Positions 2,459 to 16,433 of a DNA stretch of 31,011 nucleotides are shown here, piece after piece. Origin of the DNA: a virus; the IMG/VR virus record IMGVR_UViG_3300019889_000112, positions 1-31,011 of that record; one strand, written 5' to 3'. Made by a program: the position numbers and the translations under genes. Under the pieces are notes generated by a model. It was not told the origin of the DNA and made no database searches. It worked only from the letters and a program-made list of their open reading frames with translations. Numbering within the stretch: position 1 is the stretch's first letter; each line of letters begins with the position of its first letter.

Positions 2459-4558
2459 TTAAGCTCCTACTAATTGATTCTTATATCTCTTTTTAACAAG
2501 ATACTCTGCTACTTCTCTAATGATATCATTTTCTTCCCAAGTTAATTCAGCATCTTTATCATTCATAGTCTTCTTGAATGCTAGTCTCTTCCTTTCGACT
2601 ATCTCAGTTAGAATGCTATCAACTGTTCCATCTGCTATCATGTATGGAACACGAATGCTTGGTTGTTTGGGAGAATGGTCTTCTTTAAAGAGATGCTCCT
2701 GCAAATAAGGCGGATAGTCTTCCCACGTTAATGGACGGGAAAATCTCAATTCCGCCTGTTCCTCATTGCCCGGATTCCATTGCCTCTCTAGCATGATAGC
2801 ATTCTGGCAGAACTGAATATTCAATCCTTCGCCTGAAGCTAATGTGCTAGCTACTAAGATACGGCATTGAGAATCGTTTTTAAACTTCTGAATAATCCTA
2901 TCTCTTTCTTCTGGACCTTTCCCACCGAATAGTCTCAATGTTTTAGATAATCCCTGAGATTCAAGATACTTATCTAATCCTTCGTAAGTATGCCCATCAC
3001 CTTGTTGTAGATTATCTCCTACATCTATATGATGATGGAAGATAGTCAACTTTTCTGATTCAGGAGTATTGTCAATAAACTCCTGCACATCATCTATGCA
3101 TACTTGGACTTTAGCTAGGCCAGTGATATGCTTTAGTTGCATAATCATGCCTGCTATGTTAGCTAATGGTTGCCCATCTATCATTGCAGCTTTTACGATA
3201 TTCGCTACTTTCTCCTCTGCTTTATCGTAAGCTTGTTTATAGAGAGCTTCCATGTCTATAAAACGGATTTGACGGTTAATTTTTGGAAGATCAGGAAGGA
3301 CATCATCGCGCAGTCTACGAAGTACAATATCCTTTGTATAGTTACGAAATTCTTTTATATTTTTAATTCCGCGTTGAACGTATTTCCCTTTCTTATTGTC
3401 ATACTCATAGTCAACCCAATCATTTTTGAATTTCTCTTGACTGGGGAATCTGACGGCATCGAGCATATTCAATACTGGAAAATATTCTTGTCCTCTATTC
3501 TTCCACGGTGTGCCTGATAAGGGGATAAAATATTCTGCGCTAGTAACTAACTTCCTTAGCTCAGCAGTTCTAGAAGAATCTGGATTTTTGAAGTGTTGTA
3601 TTTCATCTGCTACAACTGTCTTGAATCCTATCTTTTCAATCTTCTCACTTGGCATATTGCGAAGAAGGTCCATTGAGATGATATACATCTTCAGGCCGGG
3701 CAAAATGAATGAGCGCGGGTTCTCAATTATCTGGGCCATAAATGCAGGCCCACACCAGTCTAATGCTTCCTTTAATGCCTGAATCTTTAATGTTGCCTTA
3801 CATACCCATAATACTGGAGTGCATTCATTAGCATGGAAGTATGCAAAGCCTAAAGCTTGGATAGTCTTACCTAATCCTGGTTCATCTGCAATTAATCCTC
3901 TGCCGGAAGCTTGTTCAAGAAACTCTATTCCTTCGGCTTGATAAGGGAATATCGTCTTACTACCACTAATGTTAGTCCAAGACTTATAATCTACTTTCTG
4001 ACTTTGCAACTGTTCATGCTTAACTAGATGGCTGCACTCTAAAAGAGTCCATTTTATTCCATTCATGACTATCGAGCTTTTTTCAATAGCCTTCTTATCG
4101 CATGTAGGACATTTAATGTCTATCCTATGAAATGTTCGCTTTGGTAAGGTTTCACTGGCTTGTATAGCTCTGCCTACATCTATCTTTAGTTTAGGCCCAC
4201 ATGGTTGAGGATTAGATAGGCCAATAGACTTTGCCTTATCTATCCATACTTGCGTATGTCCATGACCGGGACCAACTAGCGCGTGGGCTATTTCATGCAG
4301 AATAGTCTGTGTTAAATCTATCTCACTACATGTATTTAGATGATGAAGATTGATAACTACTCTCTTCTCATCATGATAACATCTAGCGAGCCAATCACTT
4401 GCCTTAGTAAATGTTGTTTTCCATCCTTTAGAGTATAAAGAAACAAACTTTTTGGCTGAACTGTCAGGCCCCATTTCTTCGCTAGGACGGTCTATTTCAT
4501 AACCATGCAATCTCAATAAATCGTCACATTGCTTTTGTGCCGTATATTGGCGAATCAT
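2459..4558 (-). CDS. SprT-like metalloprotease fused to SNF2-family helicase
   Basis: A 699-residue two-part protein. The N-terminal part has a zinc metalloprotease signature, HEIAH (residues 88-92), with further histidines at 99-101 in a GPGHGH loop, as in SprT/Spartan proteins. A zinc ribbon follows (CPTC at 150-153, Cys175, His177). From about residue 195 onward it is an SF2/SNF2 ATPase: GLGKT Walker A (228-232), DEIQH motif II (318-322), SGTPW (348-352), ASGEGLN motif V (574-580) and QWNPGNEEQAELRFSRP motif VI (593-609). The open frame reaches 4573, but the ATG at 4558 overlaps the upstream stop as ATGA and has AAGG at the right distance. It probably remodels or clears proteins on DNA; protease activity is inferred from motifs only. 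Confidence 0.85.
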   Translation of the reverse strand: MIRQYTAQKQCDDLLRLHGYEIDRPSEEMGPDSSAKKFVSLYSKGWKTTFTKASDWLARCYHDEKRVVINLHHLNTCSEIDLTQTILHEIAHALVGPGHGHTQVWIDKAKSIGLSNPQPCGPKLKIDVGRAIQASETLPKRTFHRIDIKCPTCDKKAIEKSSIVMNGIKWTLLECSHLVKHEQLQSQKVDYKSWTNISGSKTIFPYQAEGIEFLEQASGRGLIADEPGLGKTIQALGFAYFHANECTPVLWVCKATLKIQALKEALDWCGPAFMAQIIENPRSFILPGLKMYIISMDLLRNMPSEKIEKIGFKTVVADEIQHFKNPDSSRTAELRKLVTSAEYFIPLSGTPWKNRGQEYFPVLNMLDAVRFPSQEKFKNDWVDYEYDNKKGKYVQRGIKNIKEFRNYTKDIVLRRLRDDVLPDLPKINRQIRFIDMEALYKQAYDKAEEKVANIVKAAMIDGQPLANIAGMIMQLKHITGLAKVQVCIDDVQEFIDNTPESEKLTIFHHHIDVGDNLQQGDGHTYEGLDKYLESQGLSKTLRLFGGKGPEERDRIIQKFKNDSQCRILVASTLASGEGLNIQFCQNAIMLERQWNPGNEEQAELRFSRPLTWEDYPPYLQEHLFKEDHSPKQPSIRVPYMIADGTVDSILTEIVERKRLAFKKTMNDKDAELTWEENDIIREVAEYLVKKRYKNQLVGA

Positions 4559-4683
4559 TTTGAAGCCTTCCATGCTTTATTGATGTAATAAATTGGAAGC
4601 GCCCAGAAAGGCCATACTACCATTAGGAATACTGCAATGTGCGTAATGTCATCTAATAGTTGCCATATATCTACACATCTCAT
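4555..4683 (-). CDS. Small membrane protein, 42 aa
   Basis: A 42-codon frame with a strong ribosome site (GAAAGG, 7 nt spacing) that ends in ATGA overlap with the SprT-SNF2 gene. The product begins MRCVDIWQLLDDITHIAVFL and continues MVVWPFWALPIYYINKAWK. Residues 14-34 are a hydrophobic, Trp-rich span, probably one membrane helix with a basic C-terminus inside the cell. Size and topology would fit a small inner-membrane effector or an accessory lysis peptide, but no family is recognised. Confidence 0.65.
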   Translation of the reverse strand: MRCVDIWQLLDDITHIAVFLMVVWPFWALPIYYINKAWKASK

Positions 4684-4695
4684 AATGAGCCTTTC

Positions 4696-5523
4696 TTAAG
4701 AATTAACAATCTTCTCAAACTCTGATTTCTTTGCAGCTTTGGCCATTTCCAGATATTTCTCTAATGTCATGCCGAGCTGCTTTGCCATCTTCTCATCTTT
4801 GGATTGTTTTACCTTACTCGGCCCTTTTGTATATTCCTTTTCACTCTTCTCTAATCCCTTAAGACCTGCCTTCTCCCTTTCGGCATACTTAACTCTGTTA
4901 ATGTAGTCTTGCCTAGGTTCTATTGCTACCTTAACTTGGAAAAGGATTATTGATAGTTCTTCAATTTGTTTGCTTATCTCAGTAATATCCTTATTGACTA
5001 GCGCAGTCGCATGATGATTGAAGATATCATTACGACTTTTAAGCACATCATCTGACCGGGAAAAACGCAAGTTAGGAGGAATCTCTAGAAGATTGTAAAT
5101 CTGTTCTAGTAAAGGACTTGAATTGTTTAGGTTGGCAGTCTTAACTCTAACGATTTCATTCTCGTTTAAGTTTAGAATGTTGTTTAGGAGGGGCTCAAAG
5201 CATTCGTCACAAATAAAATAATCCGGGCGCCATTCTCTAGTTGCCAACTTTAATGCATTATATCTCTCAATACAAGATTGGCAATACTTAACTCCCGGTA
5301 TCTTCGTTTCACTCGATTTAGAAGGCTCATGAATAGGATCGTTCTTATCCTTTCCTTCCTTTCCTTGGCCTAATTTTACTAATGGTTCTTCTATTGAAAC
5401 TTCTGGAATGGAGACAATAGGTTCAGAAATGTCTCCTTTCACTGGCTCTTTTTTGAAGAAACAAGTAGCACATTTGTTACCTGTTAATTGAGACGTAATA
5501 GGTTTGCCACATTCACAATTCAT
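4696..5523 (-). CDS. Zinc-binding protein of unknown function, 275 aa
   Basis: The protein has two cysteine clusters: C3, C5, C18 and C21 at the N-terminus, and CQSC (81-84) with CDEC (105-108) in the middle. Each is arranged like a treble-clef or zinc-ribbon site. An acidic, low-complexity linker (about 26-72) separates them. The C-terminal half is helical and Lys/Glu-rich, ending in MTLEKYLEMAKAAKKSEFEK. A ribosome site (AAGGA, 8 nt) supports the start. It lies between a 36-aa peptide gene and the membrane peptide gene in the early operon. A nucleic-acid-binding or transcription-related role is possible but unproven. Confidence 0.6.
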   Translation of the reverse strand: MNCECGKPITSQLTGNKCATCFFKKEPVKGDISEPIVSIPEVSIEEPLVKLGQGKEGKDKNDPIHEPSKSSETKIPGVKYCQSCIERYNALKLATREWRPDYFICDECFEPLLNNILNLNENEIVRVKTANLNNSSPLLEQIYNLLEIPPNLRFSRSDDVLKSRNDIFNHHATALVNKDITEISKQIEELSIILFQVKVAIEPRQDYINRVKYAEREKAGLKGLEKSEKEYTKGPSKVKQSKDEKMAKQLGMTLEKYLEMAKAAKKSEFEKIVNS

Positions 5524-5652: not shown

Positions 5653-5955
5653 TCATAATCCTTCCTTACTAATGTAGAAGAATCCTTTTGGTCCTTTGAT
5701 TCTTTTAATCTTCTCTTCCTTAATCAATTTACTTAAATTAGAAGTGATTGAACCGGGATTCTCATCGCGCAGTAATCTTACTATTCCACTTAGTAATAGA
5801 CCATGATTCTTAGATACGATATCTACTATTCTAGATTTTAGCGACTGATTAGAGAATCCAGTAAGCCGTCGGTAATAGCCCGGTAGCTCGCCGGTCTCAG
5901 CCCGGTTCAAGGTCCACGCAGGCTCCGACGCCGTAAGTCGTTCAGGCTCAATCAC
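5653..5955 (-). CDS. Winged-helix DNA-binding protein, 100 aa (first early gene)
   Basis: Translation begins at a GTG (5953-5955) preceded by AGGGGAG at good spacing. Residues 38-97 read as a winged helix-turn-helix: helix (LKSRIVDIVSKNHG), helix (LLSGIVRLLRDE), recognition helix (ITSNLSKLIKEEKIKRI), then a wing with GPKGFFYIS. The first 37 residues are proline- and glycine-rich, and their DNA is much more GC-rich than the rest of the operon because an 11-bp-phased ACCGG array (5858-5906) runs through the coding sequence. This is the first gene after the early promoter. It is the obvious candidate to bind the arrays and regulate its own operon or mark an origin; that is inference. Confidence 0.7.
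   Translation of the reverse strand: MIEPERLTASEPAWTLNRAETGELPGYYRRLTGFSNQSLKSRIVDIVSKNHGLLLSGIVRLLRDENPGSITSNLSKLIKEEKIKRIKGPKGFFYISKEGL
5858..5906 (-). repeat. 11-bp-phased ACCGG iteron array (left arm)
   Basis: On the minus strand ACCGG occurs at 5906-5902, 5895-5891 and 5884-5880, then ACCGA at 5873-5869 and ACTGG at 5862-5858, all exactly 11 bp apart. Eleven is not a multiple of three, so this is a DNA-level signal and not a peptide repeat, although it lies in the winged-helix coding region. The array starts with TTGAACCGGGC, identical to the start of the right array at 6205. Confidence 0.8.
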
Positions 5956-5976
5956 TTAGCTCCCCTAGCACTCTCA

Positions 5977-6161
5977 ACCCTCCCTATCTTACCACTAGCG
6001 ACCCCACCGTGTCAACCCCTCTTTTGGGTAGTGTGGTAGTAGAGTGAGTATTCTTTTATATATATATAATTATATATAGAACAACAAACCACCTCTAATA
6101 TCCTGCCTACTCAAAACAGGGTCTAATAGGGTGGGGTCAGCTTAGCCTAGAGGGAGAGGGT
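5977..6161. other. Large dyad around AT palindrome: candidate origin or partition site
   Basis: A perfect 18-bp palindrome (TATATATAATTATATATA, 6061-6078) is centred at 6069.5. Around it lie a 9-bp exact inverted repeat (GACCCCACC at 6000-6008, GGTGGGGTC at 6130-6138) that extends inward as an imperfect match of about 37 bp per arm (27 identities by eye). Further out are pyrimidine tracts at equal distance (ACCCTCCC at 5977, mirrored by ACCCTCTC ending at 6161). Outward-pointing ACCGG arrays flank this. The arrangement suits an origin with a DNA-unwinding element or a partition locus. The early promoter lies in the left arm. Confidence 0.6.
5986..6015 (-). promoter_or_regulatory. Sigma70-like promoter of the leftward early operon
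   Basis: On the minus strand TTGACA (6015-6010) is followed by an 18-bp spacer and TAAGAT (5991-5986). Transcription would start near 5979, leaving a short leader to the GTG at 5955. The spacer contains one arm of the GACCCCACC inverted repeat (6000-6008), so a protein bound there would block the promoter. Confidence 0.65.
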
Positions 6162-6208
6162 AGGCTGTAAGTCTTTGTCACTCAACGATTTAGCCTTGAT
6201 TCGGTTGA

Positions 6209-6268
6209 ACCGGGCCTGAACCGGCCAAATACCGGGCGTAGACCGGGGCTCTATCGGAATTATACCGG
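6209..6268 (+). repeat. 11-bp-phased ACCGG iteron array (right arm)
   Basis: ACCGG occurs at 6209, 6220, 6231, 6242 and 6264, and ATCGG at 6253. That is six units at an exact 11-bp step. The first three units read ACCGGGC, ACCGGC and ACCGGGC, in the same order as the left array read outward. The spacers between units are otherwise unlike each other. The array lies in intergenic DNA between the early promoter and the terminator of the 188-aa gene. Confidence 0.85.
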
Positions 6269-6303
6269 CGTATATGTGATATTAAATCAGTATATTTTTA
6301 GAC

Positions 6304-6343
6304 GAAAAAATAGGGAAGCTAATCGGTTAAGACTAGCTTCCCT
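6304..6343 (-). terminator. Intrinsic terminator of the 188-aa gene
   Basis: Perfect 10-bp stem AGGGAAGCTA (6312-6321) and TAGCTTCCCT (6334-6343) with a 12-nt loop. Read on the minus strand, the stem is followed by ATTTTTTCG, a proper U-tract. It lies 22 nt past the stop of the gene at 6365-6931 and insulates the origin-like region from that transcript. Confidence 0.85.
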
Positions 6344-6364: not shown

Positions 6365-6931
6365 TTAACGCTTGCCCTTGTTCGCTCGAAATTCTGCTAC
6401 TGTGTATTCTCCGAAAACTGCTGCGTTGAATTGCTTCAACATATTGATAGCAATTTCGTCGGACACATTGGAAAGTTTCATGAAATTCCTTACCATAGTA
6501 GCCTTGGAATTTCCGATATTTTCTTCCGTCAACGGAGACTTTTCGTTGAACTTCCGCTGATATGCGTTATTCTTTGCAGTCGTTTTCAGGTCGTCATTGA
6601 AAACTTCCACAAGCTTTTTGACTGCCGGTCCAGCTTTTTCACCCTTCAATGCCTCTGCCAAAAATTGCATTTGGTCGTCTGTCAGTTCCGCGCCCAGAAG
6701 ATTCAGAGCGGTAGGAAGAGAGGGAACCTGTTGATATTCGTATGGTTCCTTATCATTGGTATACCAGATGGCAATACCATTCTCTGACAATGTGGCTCCG
6801 TCTGGAAGGTCGTCTCCCTTTTCCCAATCTTCCACTTTTACGGTAATACGAAACGTATCTTTCTTCGTATCTACTTCAGCGGGAACCTGAGAATCGAAAC
6901 GACCACGGAGCGCACGTGTTGAATTACGCAT
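6365..6931 (-). CDS. Hypothetical protein, 188 aa, own transcription unit
   Basis: A soluble acidic protein with no cysteine, signal peptide or membrane segment. Residues 25-60 look like beta strands (DTFRITVKVEDWEKGDDLP, then GIAIWYTND). The rest is mainly helical, with a Lys-rich segment (LKGEKAGPAVKKLVEVF) and a C-terminal KGKR. A GAGG ribosome site 8 nt upstream fixes the start. It is monocistronic, with a strong TTGACA promoter, a leader hairpin and its own terminator, and its base composition is richer in GC than the early operon. This design suggests strong, separately controlled expression, as for an abundant early protein or a transferred cargo gene. The family is not recognised. Confidence 0.75.
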   Translation of the reverse strand: MRNSTRALRGRFDSQVPAEVDTKKDTFRITVKVEDWEKGDDLPDGATLSENGIAIWYTNDKEPYEYQQVPSLPTALNLLGAELTDDQMQFLAEALKGEKAGPAVKKLVEVFNDDLKTTAKNNAYQRKFNEKSPLTEENIGNSKATMVRNFMKLSNVSDEIAINMLKQFNAAVFGEYTVAEFRANKGKR

Positions 6932-7019: not shown

Positions 7020-7381
7020 AGAGAAAACGACAGGGAACGAAAAATATTTCTACTTACAGGTTTGTAATGTGCGCGCGGAATATACTAATTGGGAAATATG
7101 ATAGTCGGTGTGCAATCATATGCAGAGGAAAATTGTTCTGTTATAGTGTGCAAAAGGCAGTTAACTTAACTAGATGCATGATATTGCATAGTCTCGTAAT
7201 GAGTCTACAATAGGCTACCATTCAACGCGCCTGTCATTATGATAGCTGAGCCTAGCACCTTGTCTGTTCTCTCATCCTGGGCCAATTCGATATTCCTCGA
7301 AACACGATATCGTAATGTAGTTTATCTCTCGCCTAACTGGCGCGCTGTATTCTCCTACTTACATAATAGTAATCATATCAT

Positions 7382-7397
7382 TGTGATTTATTTCACA
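7382..7397. promoter_or_regulatory. Consensus CRP/FNR-family binding site
   Basis: TGTGA-N6-TCACA matches the symmetric consensus of the cyclic-AMP receptor protein family in all ten specified bases. It lies about 285 bp upstream of the late promoter and about 365 bp from the promoter of the 188-aa gene. No CRP-family regulator is encoded in the window, so a host protein would be the reader. Confidence 0.5.
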
Positions 7398-7532
7398 GAC
7401 TATCATAGTTCGATTGACTATCATATGCCTCTCCTCTTATCATGCCTATCCCCCCATACCCCGTCCACAGGATAACATCCACACTGCTTCCAGGGCGTAG
7501 GTAGCGCAATCACATAAGGGTTTGATTTTTAG

Positions 7533-7561
7533 TTTAAAAACTTATGGATTCTTTATATAAT
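7533..7561 (+). promoter_or_regulatory. Possible upstream rightward promoter
   Basis: TTTAAA (7533-7538), a 17-bp spacer and a perfect TATAAT (7556-7561). The -10 box abuts the palindrome TTTAAGACTTAAA (7561-7573). The surrounding DNA is very AT-rich, so chance matches are likely and confidence is modest. Confidence 0.4.
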
Positions 7562-7603
7562 TTAAGACTTAAAAGGTAGGAGTCCCATAAATTAGGTAAT
7601 TGA

Positions 7604-7647
7604 ATAGTATAGTATCAAAGTTAAGACTTGTTTTAATACCATACTAT
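7604..7647 (+). repeat. Inverted repeat upstream of late promoter
   Basis: ATAGTATAGTAT (7604-7615) pairs with ATACCATACTAT (7636-7647) with one mismatch in 12, around a 20-nt loop holding TTAAGACTT. No T-run follows on either strand, so it is not a normal terminator. It ends 12 bp before the -35 box at 7660 and may be an operator. Confidence 0.5.
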
Positions 7648-7659
7648 CATTATGAGGAC

Positions 7660-7688
7660 TTGACAAGGCCGCCGAAATTTGATAGACT
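7660..7688 (+). promoter_or_regulatory. Sigma70-like promoter of the rightward structural genes
   Basis: TTGACA (7660-7665), a 17-bp spacer and TAGACT (7683-7688), with start expected near 7695. The leader to the ATG at 7750 contains the palindrome TGAACGTTCA (7711-7720) and a third copy of the TAAGACT motif (7705). No other strong promoter is seen before the terminase genes. Confidence 0.65.
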
Positions 7689-7749
7689 CCTGAGTGGAAA
7701 GTTGTAAGACTGAACGTTCACTTGTGATATTTATAGAACTATAAGAATC

Positions 7750-8250
7750 ATGAAATTATTCATTCAAGATGACGAAGTAATTGAACAAAGAATCGAAGAT
7801 ACTTTAAAATCTCCAGATAATGGAGTAGTCATTAAGTCGCAAGTGGGAATTAAGATTGGTGAGAATCGTTCTGATTTAACTAAAGAGATTACAGCATTAG
7901 ATAGTTTAGAAATTGGCGCGACTAAGGCTGGCGAAATTAATGGAGTTCCACAAAGTTCGGCGAGTAAATATGCGGTTGGAAAAGATATAGCGGATGATGA
8001 GACGCGCGTGAGAGTTTTAAATATTAGAAATCAGATTTCTGATATGGCTACCTCAAAGTTAATGGACACTCTTGATTTATTTGACCCTACTGATATTGAG
8101 AAGCCTAGAGAGCTAATAGCAGCAGCGCGCGACTTATCTACTATCGTTGAAAAGATTTCTGGTAAAGGCGAGAAGGACCAGCAGGTTCATCTTCATATGT
8201 ATATGCCTAATCAGAATAAAGTTGAGAAGTATGAAGTGATTGATGTTTAG
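7750..8250 (+). CDS. Terminase small subunit (probable)
   Basis: The 166-residue protein has a helix-turn-helix at about residues 55-78 (IGATKAGEINGVPQSSASKY), the DNA-recognition type used by small terminase subunits to bind the packaging site. The C-terminal half is helical (oligomerisation), then a tail with HLHMYMPNQ. It is the first gene after the late promoter and lies three genes before the large terminase. The leader has no clear Shine-Dalgarno, which may limit its translation. The assignment rests on the helix-turn-helix, size and position; a transcriptional regulator is the alternative. Confidence 0.65.
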   Translation: MKLFIQDDEVIEQRIEDTLKSPDNGVVIKSQVGIKIGENRSDLTKEITALDSLEIGATKAGEINGVPQSSASKYAVGKDIADDETRVRVLNIRNQISDMATSKLMDTLDLFDPTDIEKPRELIAAARDLSTIVEKISGKGEKDQQVHLHMYMPNQNKVEKYEVIDV

Positions 8251-8261
8251 AAGGAAATCAA

Positions 8262-8489
8262 ATGCCAACAGAGCTTTTAACTATTGGTCCCGTTCATAAT
8301 ATTATACAGAATGTTGTTTATGCTATGCCAACACGTAAGGTGCGTGTGCATTCATTAGCAGTGGTAGAAATATCTGTAGATAGTATTGCATGGGATGTAT
8401 TAACTAATTCTGAAACTATAGGTGCAGAGGCTGCATCTGCATTTATTCGATGTCCTGGTGGAAACACAACTCTTGTTTTGAAGGCTTAA
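8262..8489 (+). CDS. Small phage structural-type protein, 75 aa
   Basis: An all-beta small protein (MPTELLTIGPVHNIIQNVVY, then VRVHSLAVVEISVDSIAWDVL) ending in a short strand TTLVLKA. Proteins with a similar strand pattern occur among small head-associated phage proteins, but I cannot name the family. A good AAGGA ribosome site precedes it. It lies between the two terminase genes. A minor virion role is a guess from composition and location. Confidence 0.6.
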   Translation: MPTELLTIGPVHNIIQNVVYAMPTRKVRVHSLAVVEISVDSIAWDVLTNSETIGAEAASAFIRCPGGNTTLVLKA

Positions 8490-13326: not shown

Positions 13327-14506
13327 ACTTAGTAAGGATAATATTCTTGACTTACTTAAGGATGAGGAAAAAACTGAAGAAAAGGAAGAGAAACTAGAAA
13401 TTAAGGAGGATGAAGAAGAAGAGGAAGAAAAAGAGGAGAAAGAGGAAAAGGAAGATGATGATGAAGGAGAAGAAGAAAAAGAAGATTTAAAGCTAGATGA
13501 TGATGAATTAGATGAATCTAAGTTTGATTTAATTGCTCCTGTTAGTAAGAAAGAAATACTTGCAGCGTTTCCTGAACTATTCAAGAAGTTTCCACAACTG
13601 GAAGTCTCCTACTATAGGGATAGACAATTCACTGAGATTCTTCCTACTATTGATGATGCTAAGGAAGCAGTAGAGAAATCTCAAACATTAGATAGATATG
13701 AGACGCAATTATTAAAGGGTAATACTTCAGAGATTTTACAGACAGTTAAAGAAAATGATCCTGAAGCATTCAATAGAATTGCCGACAATTACATGGCAGT
13801 TCTGCATAAGGTAGATGAGAAGGCTTACTATAATGTAGTTGGTAATCTTATCAAGTTTACCATTATGAACATGGCCAATGAGGCCAAAGAAAAGAATGAC
13901 GAGAAGTTATTAGAACATGCTACTGCATTAAATGAGTTTGTATTCTCAACTAAGAAATGGACTGGGCCTACTCGGTTAAGTAAAGAGGAAACTAAAGTCG
14001 AGGAAAGTGTTTCAGAAGAGAGGAAAGCATTTCTTCAGGAACGTTTCATGACAGTTCAGTCAGATTTGCAGACAAAAGCTGATAATGCTATCACATCAAC
14101 TATTGATGCAAATATTGACCAGAACAAACAGATGACTCCGTTCGTTAAGAAGCATGCTACTAAAGATGCTTTCGATAAGCTAGAAGAACTATTGGGCCAG
14201 GATAAGCAGTTGAAAGTGGTCCTAAATCGTTTGTGGAAATCGTCACAAGAGGATAAATATTCCAGCTCCTCACTGGATAAAATTAAGTCTGCTTATCTAT
14301 CTCGCGCGAAGACGTTGCTTCCCAGTGTTATCAAGCTTGCTAGACAAGAAGCTTTGAAAGGCATTGGCAAAAAGACTTCCTCTGATGATGAAAAAGACAA
14401 AAGAGGACATATCACAGTAGGTCGGACTTCCTCATCCGAAAAACCTAGAGGAAAGAACGAAATTCCCAAGGGTATGAGTAATAAAGATTTTATTATGGCT
14501 GATTAA
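13295..14506 (+). CDS. Scaffolding/capsid assembly protein
   Basis: The frame is open further upstream to 13244, but AGGAG with 6-7 nt spacing points to ATG 13295 (MALPIDSQSSELSKDN), giving 403 residues and a 32-nt overlap with the portal gene. Residues about 24-75 are an extreme Glu/Lys/Asp tract. The remainder is helical and charged, and the C-terminus ends KGMSNKDFIMAD after a basic segment. Composition, helical nature and position directly before the capsid gene fit a scaffolding protein that nucleates prohead assembly and then leaves. No protease signature is seen. Confidence 0.75.
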   Translation: MALPIDSQSSELSKDNILDLLKDEEKTEEKEEKLEIKEDEEEEEEKEEKEEKEDDDEGEEEKEDLKLDDDELDESKFDLIAPVSKKEILAAFPELFKKFPQLEVSYYRDRQFTEILPTIDDAKEAVEKSQTLDRYETQLLKGNTSEILQTVKENDPEAFNRIADNYMAVLHKVDEKAYYNVVGNLIKFTIMNMANEAKEKNDEKLLEHATALNEFVFSTKKWTGPTRLSKEETKVEESVSEERKAFLQERFMTVQSDLQTKADNAITSTIDANIDQNKQMTPFVKKHATKDAFDKLEELLGQDKQLKVVLNRLWKSSQEDKYSSSSLDKIKSAYLSRAKTLLPSVIKLARQEALKGIGKKTSSDDEKDKRGHITVGRTSSSEKPRGKNEIPKGMSNKDFIMAD

Positions 14507-14547
14507 TTATGAAAGATTACAGACATAATAAAAAATGAGGAGAATAA

Positions 14548-15801
14548 ATGCCTGCTGTCAATGAAGCACAAGTAGCGGCATTAGAACTAGAGCGCGTCCT
14601 TCCAAAAGTTAGAACAGTTTTTGAAAGGGACGATAGGTTCTTTGCCCATATCAAAAAGAGAGATGTAGAGCGCATCAGCAATCGACAGATGCGCATTCCT
14701 CTGGAATTAAGACCTGGAGGTTCTTTCCAGTATTTTAATCCAGATGGTGGCGATTTAGGACGTGGTGGAGGGCCTTCTTGGGATAAGGCAGTAGTAAATT
14801 CAGTATTTCTTTCTGAGAATATTGAATATACTAAGTTATCTCAGTGGGCTACCGACGATGCCAGGAAAGCTGTAATTAATTCTGTTCGTCGTTTAACTGC
14901 AACTGCGCTAGATGAGCTAAGAAGGCAGTTAGATGCTCAGATGATGCAGTCTGGAAATGGTGTTATTGGAACTGTTACCACAGATACTCCTGCTGCTGGA
15001 AGCAATGTTATCACATTGACTACGGATGGTTTTGGTGCGCGTTTGATGCGTTATGGCCAAACTATCCAGGTCTTTGATGCTACATTGGTTACAAACAGAG
15101 GTTCAGGAGTAATTACTCAGTGGGATGTAGAGAATAAAACTATTAGTGTAACTCCCCAGATTGCTGGTGTTGTTGCTGGCGATTTGATTGTAACTAATGG
15201 TATTACTAGTCCATTGAGTCTTCCTGCTTTGTTTGGGGTTCCTTATCATCACTCCAATTCTTCAGTTGGAGCATGGTTAGGATTCTCGCGCGCGGCTACT
15301 CCTGAAATTCGTTCCAATCGTGTAAATGGTGGAAATACTGCACTATCCCTACCATTACCTCGTCTTGCTATTAACAAGATGGGTAATAGGGTAGGGATTG
15401 ACAATAACTTCAAGCCTAATGCTTGGACACATCCTGCGCAGGCACAAGCATATGAAGAGATTGGACAGCTAATTTCTTTCATTCAGAAGTCGCCTAAAGA
15501 AGAATCACTGAATCTCTATTTCAGTGATAATATGCAATTGGCTGGTGCTCCATTAAAGCAAAGCTTTAATTGGAATCCTTCTCGAATTGATTTCGTTTCT
15601 GATGAAGTATGGGGCCGGGGGGAAATTCTTCCTATTGGTTTCTATACCACTGACGGAAGAAAAATATTCGAGATTCGTGGCGCATCTGGTGGTGTGGCAA
15701 CTGCTGATATTTTCTACATGGTGATTGGAACACAATTCTTTGTGAACAATCCAGCAGCTACTGCATACATTGATGATCTGGGCGTTCCTTCTGGTTATTA
15801 A
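14548..15801 (+). CDS. Major capsid protein
   Basis: A 417-residue protein with a strong ribosome site (GAGGAG) directly after the scaffold gene. The N-terminus is helical (LELERVLPKVRTVFERDDRFF), followed by an extended loop rich in Gly and Pro (PGGSFQYFNPDGGDLGRGGG) reminiscent of an E-loop, and a long spine helix (DARKAVINSVRRLTATALDEL). The C-terminal half alternates strands, ending with YMVIGTQFFVNNPAATAYID. This layout suits an HK97-fold coat protein, with a beta insertion around residues 140-230. The assignment is based on position, size and fold pattern, without a database match. Confidence 0.85.
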   Translation: MPAVNEAQVAALELERVLPKVRTVFERDDRFFAHIKKRDVERISNRQMRIPLELRPGGSFQYFNPDGGDLGRGGGPSWDKAVVNSVFLSENIEYTKLSQWATDDARKAVINSVRRLTATALDELRRQLDAQMMQSGNGVIGTVTTDTPAAGSNVITLTTDGFGARLMRYGQTIQVFDATLVTNRGSGVITQWDVENKTISVTPQIAGVVAGDLIVTNGITSPLSLPALFGVPYHHSNSSVGAWLGFSRAATPEIRSNRVNGGNTALSLPLPRLAINKMGNRVGIDNNFKPNAWTHPAQAQAYEEIGQLISFIQKSPKEESLNLYFSDNMQLAGAPLKQSFNWNPSRIDFVSDEVWGRGEILPIGFYTTDGRKIFEIRGASGGVATADIFYMVIGTQFFVNNPAATAYIDDLGVPSGY

Positions 15802-15815
15802 GGAAAGGATTAAAA

Positions 15816-16130
15816 ATGTCAGACCTTAATCACCAAGATTTCAGCACAGTCCAAAGTGAAGCGCAGCAGAAACCTATTACTATGGCATCTGCCACGACTA
15901 TCACTCCTAAAACTAAACTAACCTTCCTTACTGGAACAGTGCAATTGCAGAATATTACACCCCCAGTAACAGGTTATGTTGAAATCACATTATGCTTTAC
16001 GAATGAAGCTCCAGGGTTATTTTTAACTACTGGAAACATTCAGATCGCATATCAGCCAGTGCAGAATAGACCTATTGATTTGTGCTATGATCCTCTTAGT
16101 GCAAAATGGTGGGTTAAGGCTGTAGTATAA
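15816..16130 (+). CDS. Small head protein (decoration candidate), 104 aa
   Basis: A beta-rich protein with a flexible polar N-terminus (MSDLNHQDFSTVQSEAQQKP) and then alternating strands (TKLTFLTGTVQLQNIT, VEITLCFTN). It ends KWWVKAVV. It has a strong AAGGAAAGGA ribosome site and follows the major capsid gene by 14 nt, the usual place for a capsid decoration or cement protein. No family is recognised, so the role is inferred from position. Confidence 0.6.
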   Translation: MSDLNHQDFSTVQSEAQQKPITMASATTITPKTKLTFLTGTVQLQNITPPVTGYVEITLCFTNEAPGLFLTTGNIQIAYQPVQNRPIDLCYDPLSAKWWVKAVV

Positions 16131-16145
16131 GAAAAAGGAAGTAGA

Positions 16146-16433
16146 ATGAGAATAGATGTTTATGTGCATCAGGCTGATTCTACTTCTTCCTTAGAGAAGA
16201 AAGTAGATTTAGTTATCACTAAATTGGGAGGAATAATGGCAAAGGTTGATGAATTGCTTGCAGAGTTGGAAAAGGCGAATACTACTACAAATGAAATTGC
16301 TAATGATATTGCTGACTTAATTGCTAAGCTGGCAAATGGATTATCAGCGGCAGAAGCAGCAGTAGTTCAGGCTAAGTTAGCAGAATTGCAGGCTAAGTTG
16401 GAAGGTGTAGCGGCAACTCATACTCCTAGCTAG
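16146..16433 (+). CDS. Coiled-coil protein with two possible starts, 95 aa
   Basis: The full frame starts at ATG 16146 (AGGAAG ribosome site), but a second in-frame ATG at residue 31 (MAKVDELLAELEKANTTTNE) is preceded by a very strong GGAGGAATA. From residue 31 on, the protein is an Ala/Leu/Lys heptad coiled coil; the N-terminal 30 residues are a separate segment (MRIDVYVHQADSTSSLEKK). Two products from one gene are plausible. Such coiled coils in head modules can be fibrous or trimerising proteins. The function is not known. Confidence 0.6.
   Translation: MRIDVYVHQADSTSSLEKKVDLVITKLGGIMAKVDELLAELEKANTTTNEIANDIADLIAKLANGLSAAEAAVVQAKLAELQAKLEGVAATHTPS

Follow-up and report, generated by a model that had tools for sequence, protein, structure and literature searches.

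Two outward-facing arrays in the early region

The window (the whole stretch of DNA analyzed) is a 31-kb IMG/VR virus record from an incomplete tailed phage, in which the plus strand carries the terminase and structural genes from 7.7 kb onward and the minus strand, to the left of these, the early genes. The SNF2-type helicase among the early genes has an N-terminal SprT-like domain of the metallopeptidase type, and a small-terminase-like gene lies near the arrays (7750-8250). The arrays themselves sit between the gene for a 188-aa early protein, which ends in a terminator-like hairpin, and the remaining early operon (Table 1).

Table 1. Features of the array locus and its neighborhood in the window.
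Feature	Position	Strand	Remarks
SNF2-type helicase with SprT-like N-terminal domain	2459-4573	-	Anchor for finding relatives
Conserved early protein with CxxC pairs (zinc-ribbon-like)	4696-5523	-	Next conserved gene on the other side of the array
ORF with winged-helix-like C-terminal part	5653-5955	-	GTG start in palindrome; 5' third over left array
Left array	5858-5910	-	Five 11-bp units, reading outward: TTGAACCGGGC TGAGACCGGCG AGCTACCGGGC TATTACCGACG GCTTACTGG
Left palindrome, GTAAGTC-N13-CACTTAG	5933-5959		Phase-locked to left array
Sigma-70-like promoter, TTGACA-18-TAAGAT	5986-6015 (read 6015-5986)	-	Towards early operon
AT-rich core	6050-6085		Poly-T/AT tract at the same place in relatives
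Right palindrome, GTAAGTC-N13-GATTTAG	6167-6193		Phase-locked to right array
Right array	6205-6270	+	Six 11-bp units, reading outward: TTGAACCGGGC CTGAACCGGCC AAATACCGGGC GTAGACCGGGG CTCTATCGGAA TTATACCGGCG
Terminator-like hairpin	6312-6343	-	3' of the 188-aa gene, before right array
188-aa early protein	6365-6931	-	Family beside arrays in 13/18 array loci

The two arrays of ACCGG at an exact 11-bp step that a first-pass annotation had reported were both present. On the minus strand three exact units (5902-5906, 5891-5895 and 5880-5884) are followed, still in 11-bp step, by two units with one mismatch each (ACCGA, 5869-5873; ACTGG, 5858-5862), and on the plus strand five exact units start at 6209, 6220, 6231, 6242 and 6264 with a single mismatched unit, ATCGG, at 6253. 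Both arrays begin with TTGAACCGGGC and have the order ACCGGGC/ACCGGC/ACCGGGC in common, again as first described. Runs of six and five units compare with a maximum of three in 500 dinucleotide-preserving shuffles of the window, these are the only two period-11 arrays in the window, and the array locus was single in each of nine other complete or long relatives. A peptide repeat cannot account for the step, as had been argued before, since 11 is no multiple of 3. The placement of the left array inside a gene, which formed part of the same annotation, is doubtful: the GTG of the overlapping ORF, its only canonical start, is part of the CTAAGTG of a conserved palindrome, which makes translation of the array doubtful, and a gene overlapping the array is no conserved feature in most relatives.

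Just inside each array lies a 27-bp palindrome, CTAAGTS-N13-SACTTAG (consensus CTAAGTC-ntTgannntcAan-GACTTAG), that had not been noticed before, and the array and palindrome system is larger than the two arrays first described. The half-site centers of the palindrome are 20 bp apart, about two helical turns. The space between the arms contains an AT-rich or poly-T tract and inverted C-rich/G-rich blocks, and many phages also have a sigma-70 promoter there that is directed towards the helicase. TTGAC was found at the best -35 site of the helicase-side half in 24/40 loci compared to four for the other half, and the promoter occupies the same place in relatives with ACC-type arrays and in those without arrays. 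The clade with GGAA-type arrays has lost the sigma-70 promoter consensus; in this clade (L142-L200) all array phages are without the early-promoter consensus that array-less and ACC-type relatives retain, and their promoter may depend on an activator or their host may use promoters of another type.

Conserved geometry and changing motifs in relatives

Relatives were collected by a TerL search (33) and by alignment of the SNF2 helicase (80 loci, approximately 33-66% identity), many of them contigs of about 40-50 kb and some with terminal repeats. Searches with the 188-aa protein found none with a single sequence as query and four already known relatives with an alignment. The phage collection contained no close isolate, with isolated phages giving distant TerL and helicase homologues only, and the bacterial genomes searched gave one distant helicase only. 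Gene order is kept in the relatives as TerS, 188-aa family, array-core-array, zinc-ribbon-like protein and SNF2 helicase, and the odd repeat of one record turns out to be a conserved part of the anatomy of a phage clan that is widespread but has no isolate. This clan has replication genes of its own, namely UDG-PolA, DUF3987/primase-like and exonuclease genes; the PolA region is absent from the window's contig.

Some further details were noted in individual relatives. In one genome (G002; L103:4509-7016) a DNA polymerase A is fused to an N-terminal domain of the uracil-DNA-glycosylase superfamily, and homologues of this protein were found in nearly all relatives. Another genome (G014, the 62,483-base record of L173) contains two different PolA genes (13722-16217 and 58229-60724) and, given these, may be a chimeric or joined contig. 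In L134 the 188-aa family gene (7362-7778) has the reverse of its orientation in other relatives and diverges from the array, and in L172 the place of the first gene next to the array is taken by an HNH-like endonuclease ORF (7890-8324).

In 81 loci, a motif-blind scan for inverted pairs of four-unit arrays spaced 250-520 bp apart recovered an outward-facing pair in 20 loci at period 11 and, with the threshold unchanged, in none at periods of 7-10 or 12-17. A second scan covered 86 arms from 46 loci that were chosen by their poly-T/AT core with the arrays disregarded; a period-11 array was present in 43 arms (36 at a stricter cut), compared to 0-3 for other periods except the 22-bp harmonic (15), and control regions had no arrays at period 11. 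The first-pass annotation had proposed checking relatives with the same genes for the 11-bp phase, and the phase is indeed kept in those 43 of the 86 arms, but a large clade has kept the core and promoter and lost the arrays, the palindromes and a helix-turn-helix (HTH) protein described below. The arrays are thus not required by every such phage.

The array motif differs between phages and the geometry is constant, with approximately 5-7 units per array at an exact 11-bp step. Reading outward, the motifs included ACCGG (the window), GACCGA, CGACCG, CCGAT, CCCGAA, AGTAGGGAAAC, CACGGAA, ACAGGAAT, AAGAAAC, TAGAATC, GAGCGGGA, TTTAGGG, TTGGGATT, GGTAAGAATG and ACGAGAAA. Left and right arrays nevertheless agreed in motif and outward polarity in all 21 of the 21 phages with both arrays called; mean left-right motif similarity was 2.74, whereas different phages scored 1.35 against one another and the opposite polarity scored 0.68, and the left-right agreement was reached in 0 of 10,000 permutations.

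The palindrome, by comparison, is nearly invariant across phages with differing array motifs. Its gap was 13 bp in 22/27 array phages, with 0-2 for other gaps, and the gap-13 form was present in only 3/19 array-less phages (Fisher P = 1.4e-5). We compared the palindrome-to-array distance on both arms in the 18 phages with both palindromes, the two arrays being registered on each other. Modulo 11, the arms differed by 0 in 12 of these phages and by 1 bp in the other six (Rayleigh P about 1e-7). The distances themselves, 23 and 34 bp in the window, are often unequal by one full turn, indicating that phase is kept and not length. Across the center the two palindromes are 211-297 bp apart with no preferred phase. 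Phase-locking inside the arm together with free phase across the center indicates that each arm, an inner palindrome plus an outward-pointing array, behaves as one rigid nucleoprotein unit and the two arms as independent mirror images around the AT/poly-T core. These rules (11-bp step, 13-bp palindrome gap, phase-lock) are strict enough for direct testing. We found no description of such a site in the open-access literature, and the two mirrored arms look like an undescribed element.

Candidate binding proteins

The neighboring winged-helix protein had been put forward as the obvious binder. Its ORF adjoins the arrays of the window and of G002 but is absent in G001, in G004 and at most array loci. 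Since array-bearing relatives do without the gene, and its GTG start is part of the palindrome, we rejected it as the general binder, which it probably is not. The 188-aa family comprises early proteins of about 110-215 aa with a predicted beta-hairpin and helices (pLDDT 87). It was absent by BLAST from six array-less genomes. This protein was also rejected as the binder, its C-terminal part being nearly constant across differing motifs, a probable distant homologue occupying the same place in array-less phages and its model having no fold match in PDB or BFVD.

Many relatives encode, beside PolA, a stand-alone HTH protein of 80-93 aa. Its model (pLDDT 95) best matched the HTH domain of ParB/Noc/Spo0J/KorB (VIA-align Z 7.6, rmsd 2.2, 76/84 residues; Foldseek E above 1), and the top ten matches all belonged to the ParB/Noc/KorB family at Z 7.6 to approximately 6, which is below the level that settles kinship. 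The likeness is one of predicted fold; unlike those proteins, the phage protein is only an HTH unit and lacks a CTPase or dimerization domain. The HTH protein was associated with arrays (16/7 compared to 2/11; P = 0.005) in a statistic that ignores relatedness, and on the tree this is largely one co-loss. Arrays were present and the HTH protein was not detected in G002 and G013, and some phages with the HTH protein are without arrays. Array motif similarity was correlated with HTH similarity (r = 0.47; P = 0.0006), but the correlation vanished once helicase relatedness was removed (partial r = -0.08; P = 0.75), and the HTH protein was rejected as the determinant of specificity. A scan of other protein families gave no robust tracker of the array motif. 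The ParB-like HTH protein beside PolA, which tends to be lost together with the arrays, is the first candidate for a binder of the palindrome or the array, and a better, if unproven, one than the winged-helix ORF.

Possible functions of the two-armed site

Our preferred but tentative reading is that positions 5858-6270 form a two-armed site of nucleoprotein assembly, most likely a replication origin combined with an early control region. The fixed geometry, the concerted drift of the two arrays and the phase-locked palindrome suggest one protein complex extending from the palindrome outward in 11-bp steps. A phage DNA-binding protein would nucleate on the palindrome and polymerize outward along the array, with one subunit per turn on nearly one face of the DNA. 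The two opposed complexes would act on the AT core between them, opening it and loading replication proteins in both directions, and/or would determine how active the early promoter is. On both arms the array sequence drifts fast and in concert, leaving each phage lineage with its own code. A bidirectional origin is favored because of the mirror symmetry around the AT core, the placement in the replication/early region and the absence of phasing between the arms, and the clan's own replication genes also speak for this reading. GC-skew minima near the core were rejected as proof of an origin, being confounded by gene strand and by the local C-rich/G-rich blocks.

In structure the site comes nearest to iteron-type origins (lambda ori, plasmid iterons), which have tandem initiator sites next to an AT-rich stretch in a replication or early region, and in the relatives tandem repeats (putative initiator sites) do flank the AT/poly-T core. 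These origins differ from the phage site, where the arrays are mirrored on both sides of the core, keep an exact 11-bp step, have a motif private to the lineage and enclose an invariant inner palindrome. Herpesvirus-type origins have inverted initiator boxes on both sides of an AT-rich center; this likeness is one of layout only, the viruses being unrelated and the phages having arrays in place of single boxes.

An operator of the early promoter only, with a regulator that coats both arrays and represses the promoter (in one clade activates it) and no role in replication, is a serious if somewhat less probable alternative, ranked below an origin with early control. It is favored by the promoter between the arms: a conserved sigma-70 promoter is enclosed by the arms in the window and in several relatives, with TTGACA near -35 on the early-gene half and none on the other half. 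The one array clade without a promoter consensus, that with GGAA-type arrays, is what would be expected if an array-bound activator had replaced the promoter, and repression by a promoter loop has a precedent in plasmid R1 (PMC5016525). The promoter, however, is one-directional, whereas the arms mirror each other and lie about equally far from the AT core on either side. The lack of phasing between the arms is also easier to reconcile with two mirrored complexes than with a tight loop, and array-less phages retain the same promoter. Reading of the arrays at the RNA level was disfavored, as only one arm is downstream of a recognizable promoter.

Two further explanations are improbable. The arrays could be a site for a host factor that recognizes tandem repeats, used or evaded by the phage, with the motif differences reflecting different hosts. 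MraZ, which forms rings, binds short tandem repeats about one turn apart, and motif turnover convincingly tracks no phage protein among those examined, but the near-invariant, phase-locked palindrome fits one phage-encoded complex better. Slightly less probable still is a centromere-like partition site (ParR/TubR-type) of a plasmid-like phage. The repeats of R1 parC are 11 bp long, and the HTH protein has a ParB-type HTH fold. R1 parC is the nearest functional analogy: it is split by a promoter, which loops out and is repressed on ParR binding (PMC5016525), and the short phage repeats in two clusters around a promoter resemble it, such that the parallel drawn in the first-pass annotation holds for this anatomy. 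It differs in that ten direct repeats are described for R1 parC (Dam and Gerdes, 1994, cited in PMC5016525) and the phage clusters are inverted, outward-facing and approximately 300 bp apart, each with a phase-locked palindrome, in that the phage promoter serves replication genes and one array clade lacks its consensus, and in that no motor protein was found. The binding specificity of ParR is likewise described as drifting between relatives (PMC9426499).

Neither ParM nor ParR was found. TubZ (PF00091) had no match in ten genomes, the window's own record being incomplete, compared to 13 of 14 control genomes; ParM (PF06406) had none in ten genomes and none in the control genomes either; and a ParA-like gene was absent among the early proteins scanned, a subset of the ORFs. 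The iterons of tubC in TubZRC are likewise blocks of direct repeats, read by the small winged-helix TubR (PMC5016525), but the ten genomes gave no tubulin homologue and the winged-helix ORF is not conserved with the arrays. A partition, replication or repression site had been suggested originally; a phased, paired, putative protein-binding site in a replication/control region, with phase kept over sequence, bears out the general proposal, and partition is the unlikely member of the three.

Least probable of all is a packaging (pac) site recognized by the small terminase, since the ring of this protein could wrap repeats in helical phase: HTH domains occur in TerS proteins and a TerS-like gene is close by, but TerS is also found in array-less phages, motif differences do not follow TerS divergence (partial r = -0.41), and two mirrored arrays separated by about 300 bp with an AT core between them match no known pac design.

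If an origin with early control is correct, these phages would have their origin or master control site here, and the relatives would form a natural series with diverging DNA specificity at constant nucleoprotein geometry, of use in studying how a protein-DNA code evolves. It is possible, though we rate it no higher than the operator, that the two mirrored arms represent an undescribed phage origin/control class, in which a fixed palindrome nucleates a protein that spreads along the phase-locked array, the array code turns over rapidly and in concert, and the private specificity of each lineage resembles plasmid incompatibility groups.

Exact ACCGG arrays of four units elsewhere in IMG/VR were mostly minisatellites or other designs. 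Two unrelated prophage-like records (L028:4696-4770 and L055:854-920) have a single 11-bp ACCGG array each, for which a distant inverted partner array was not seen. These arrays consist of about seven and 4-6 units, respectively, with variable linkers, lie 3' of a small ORF and 5' of a tRNA-like sequence, and are possibly an independent use of 11-bp phased sites.
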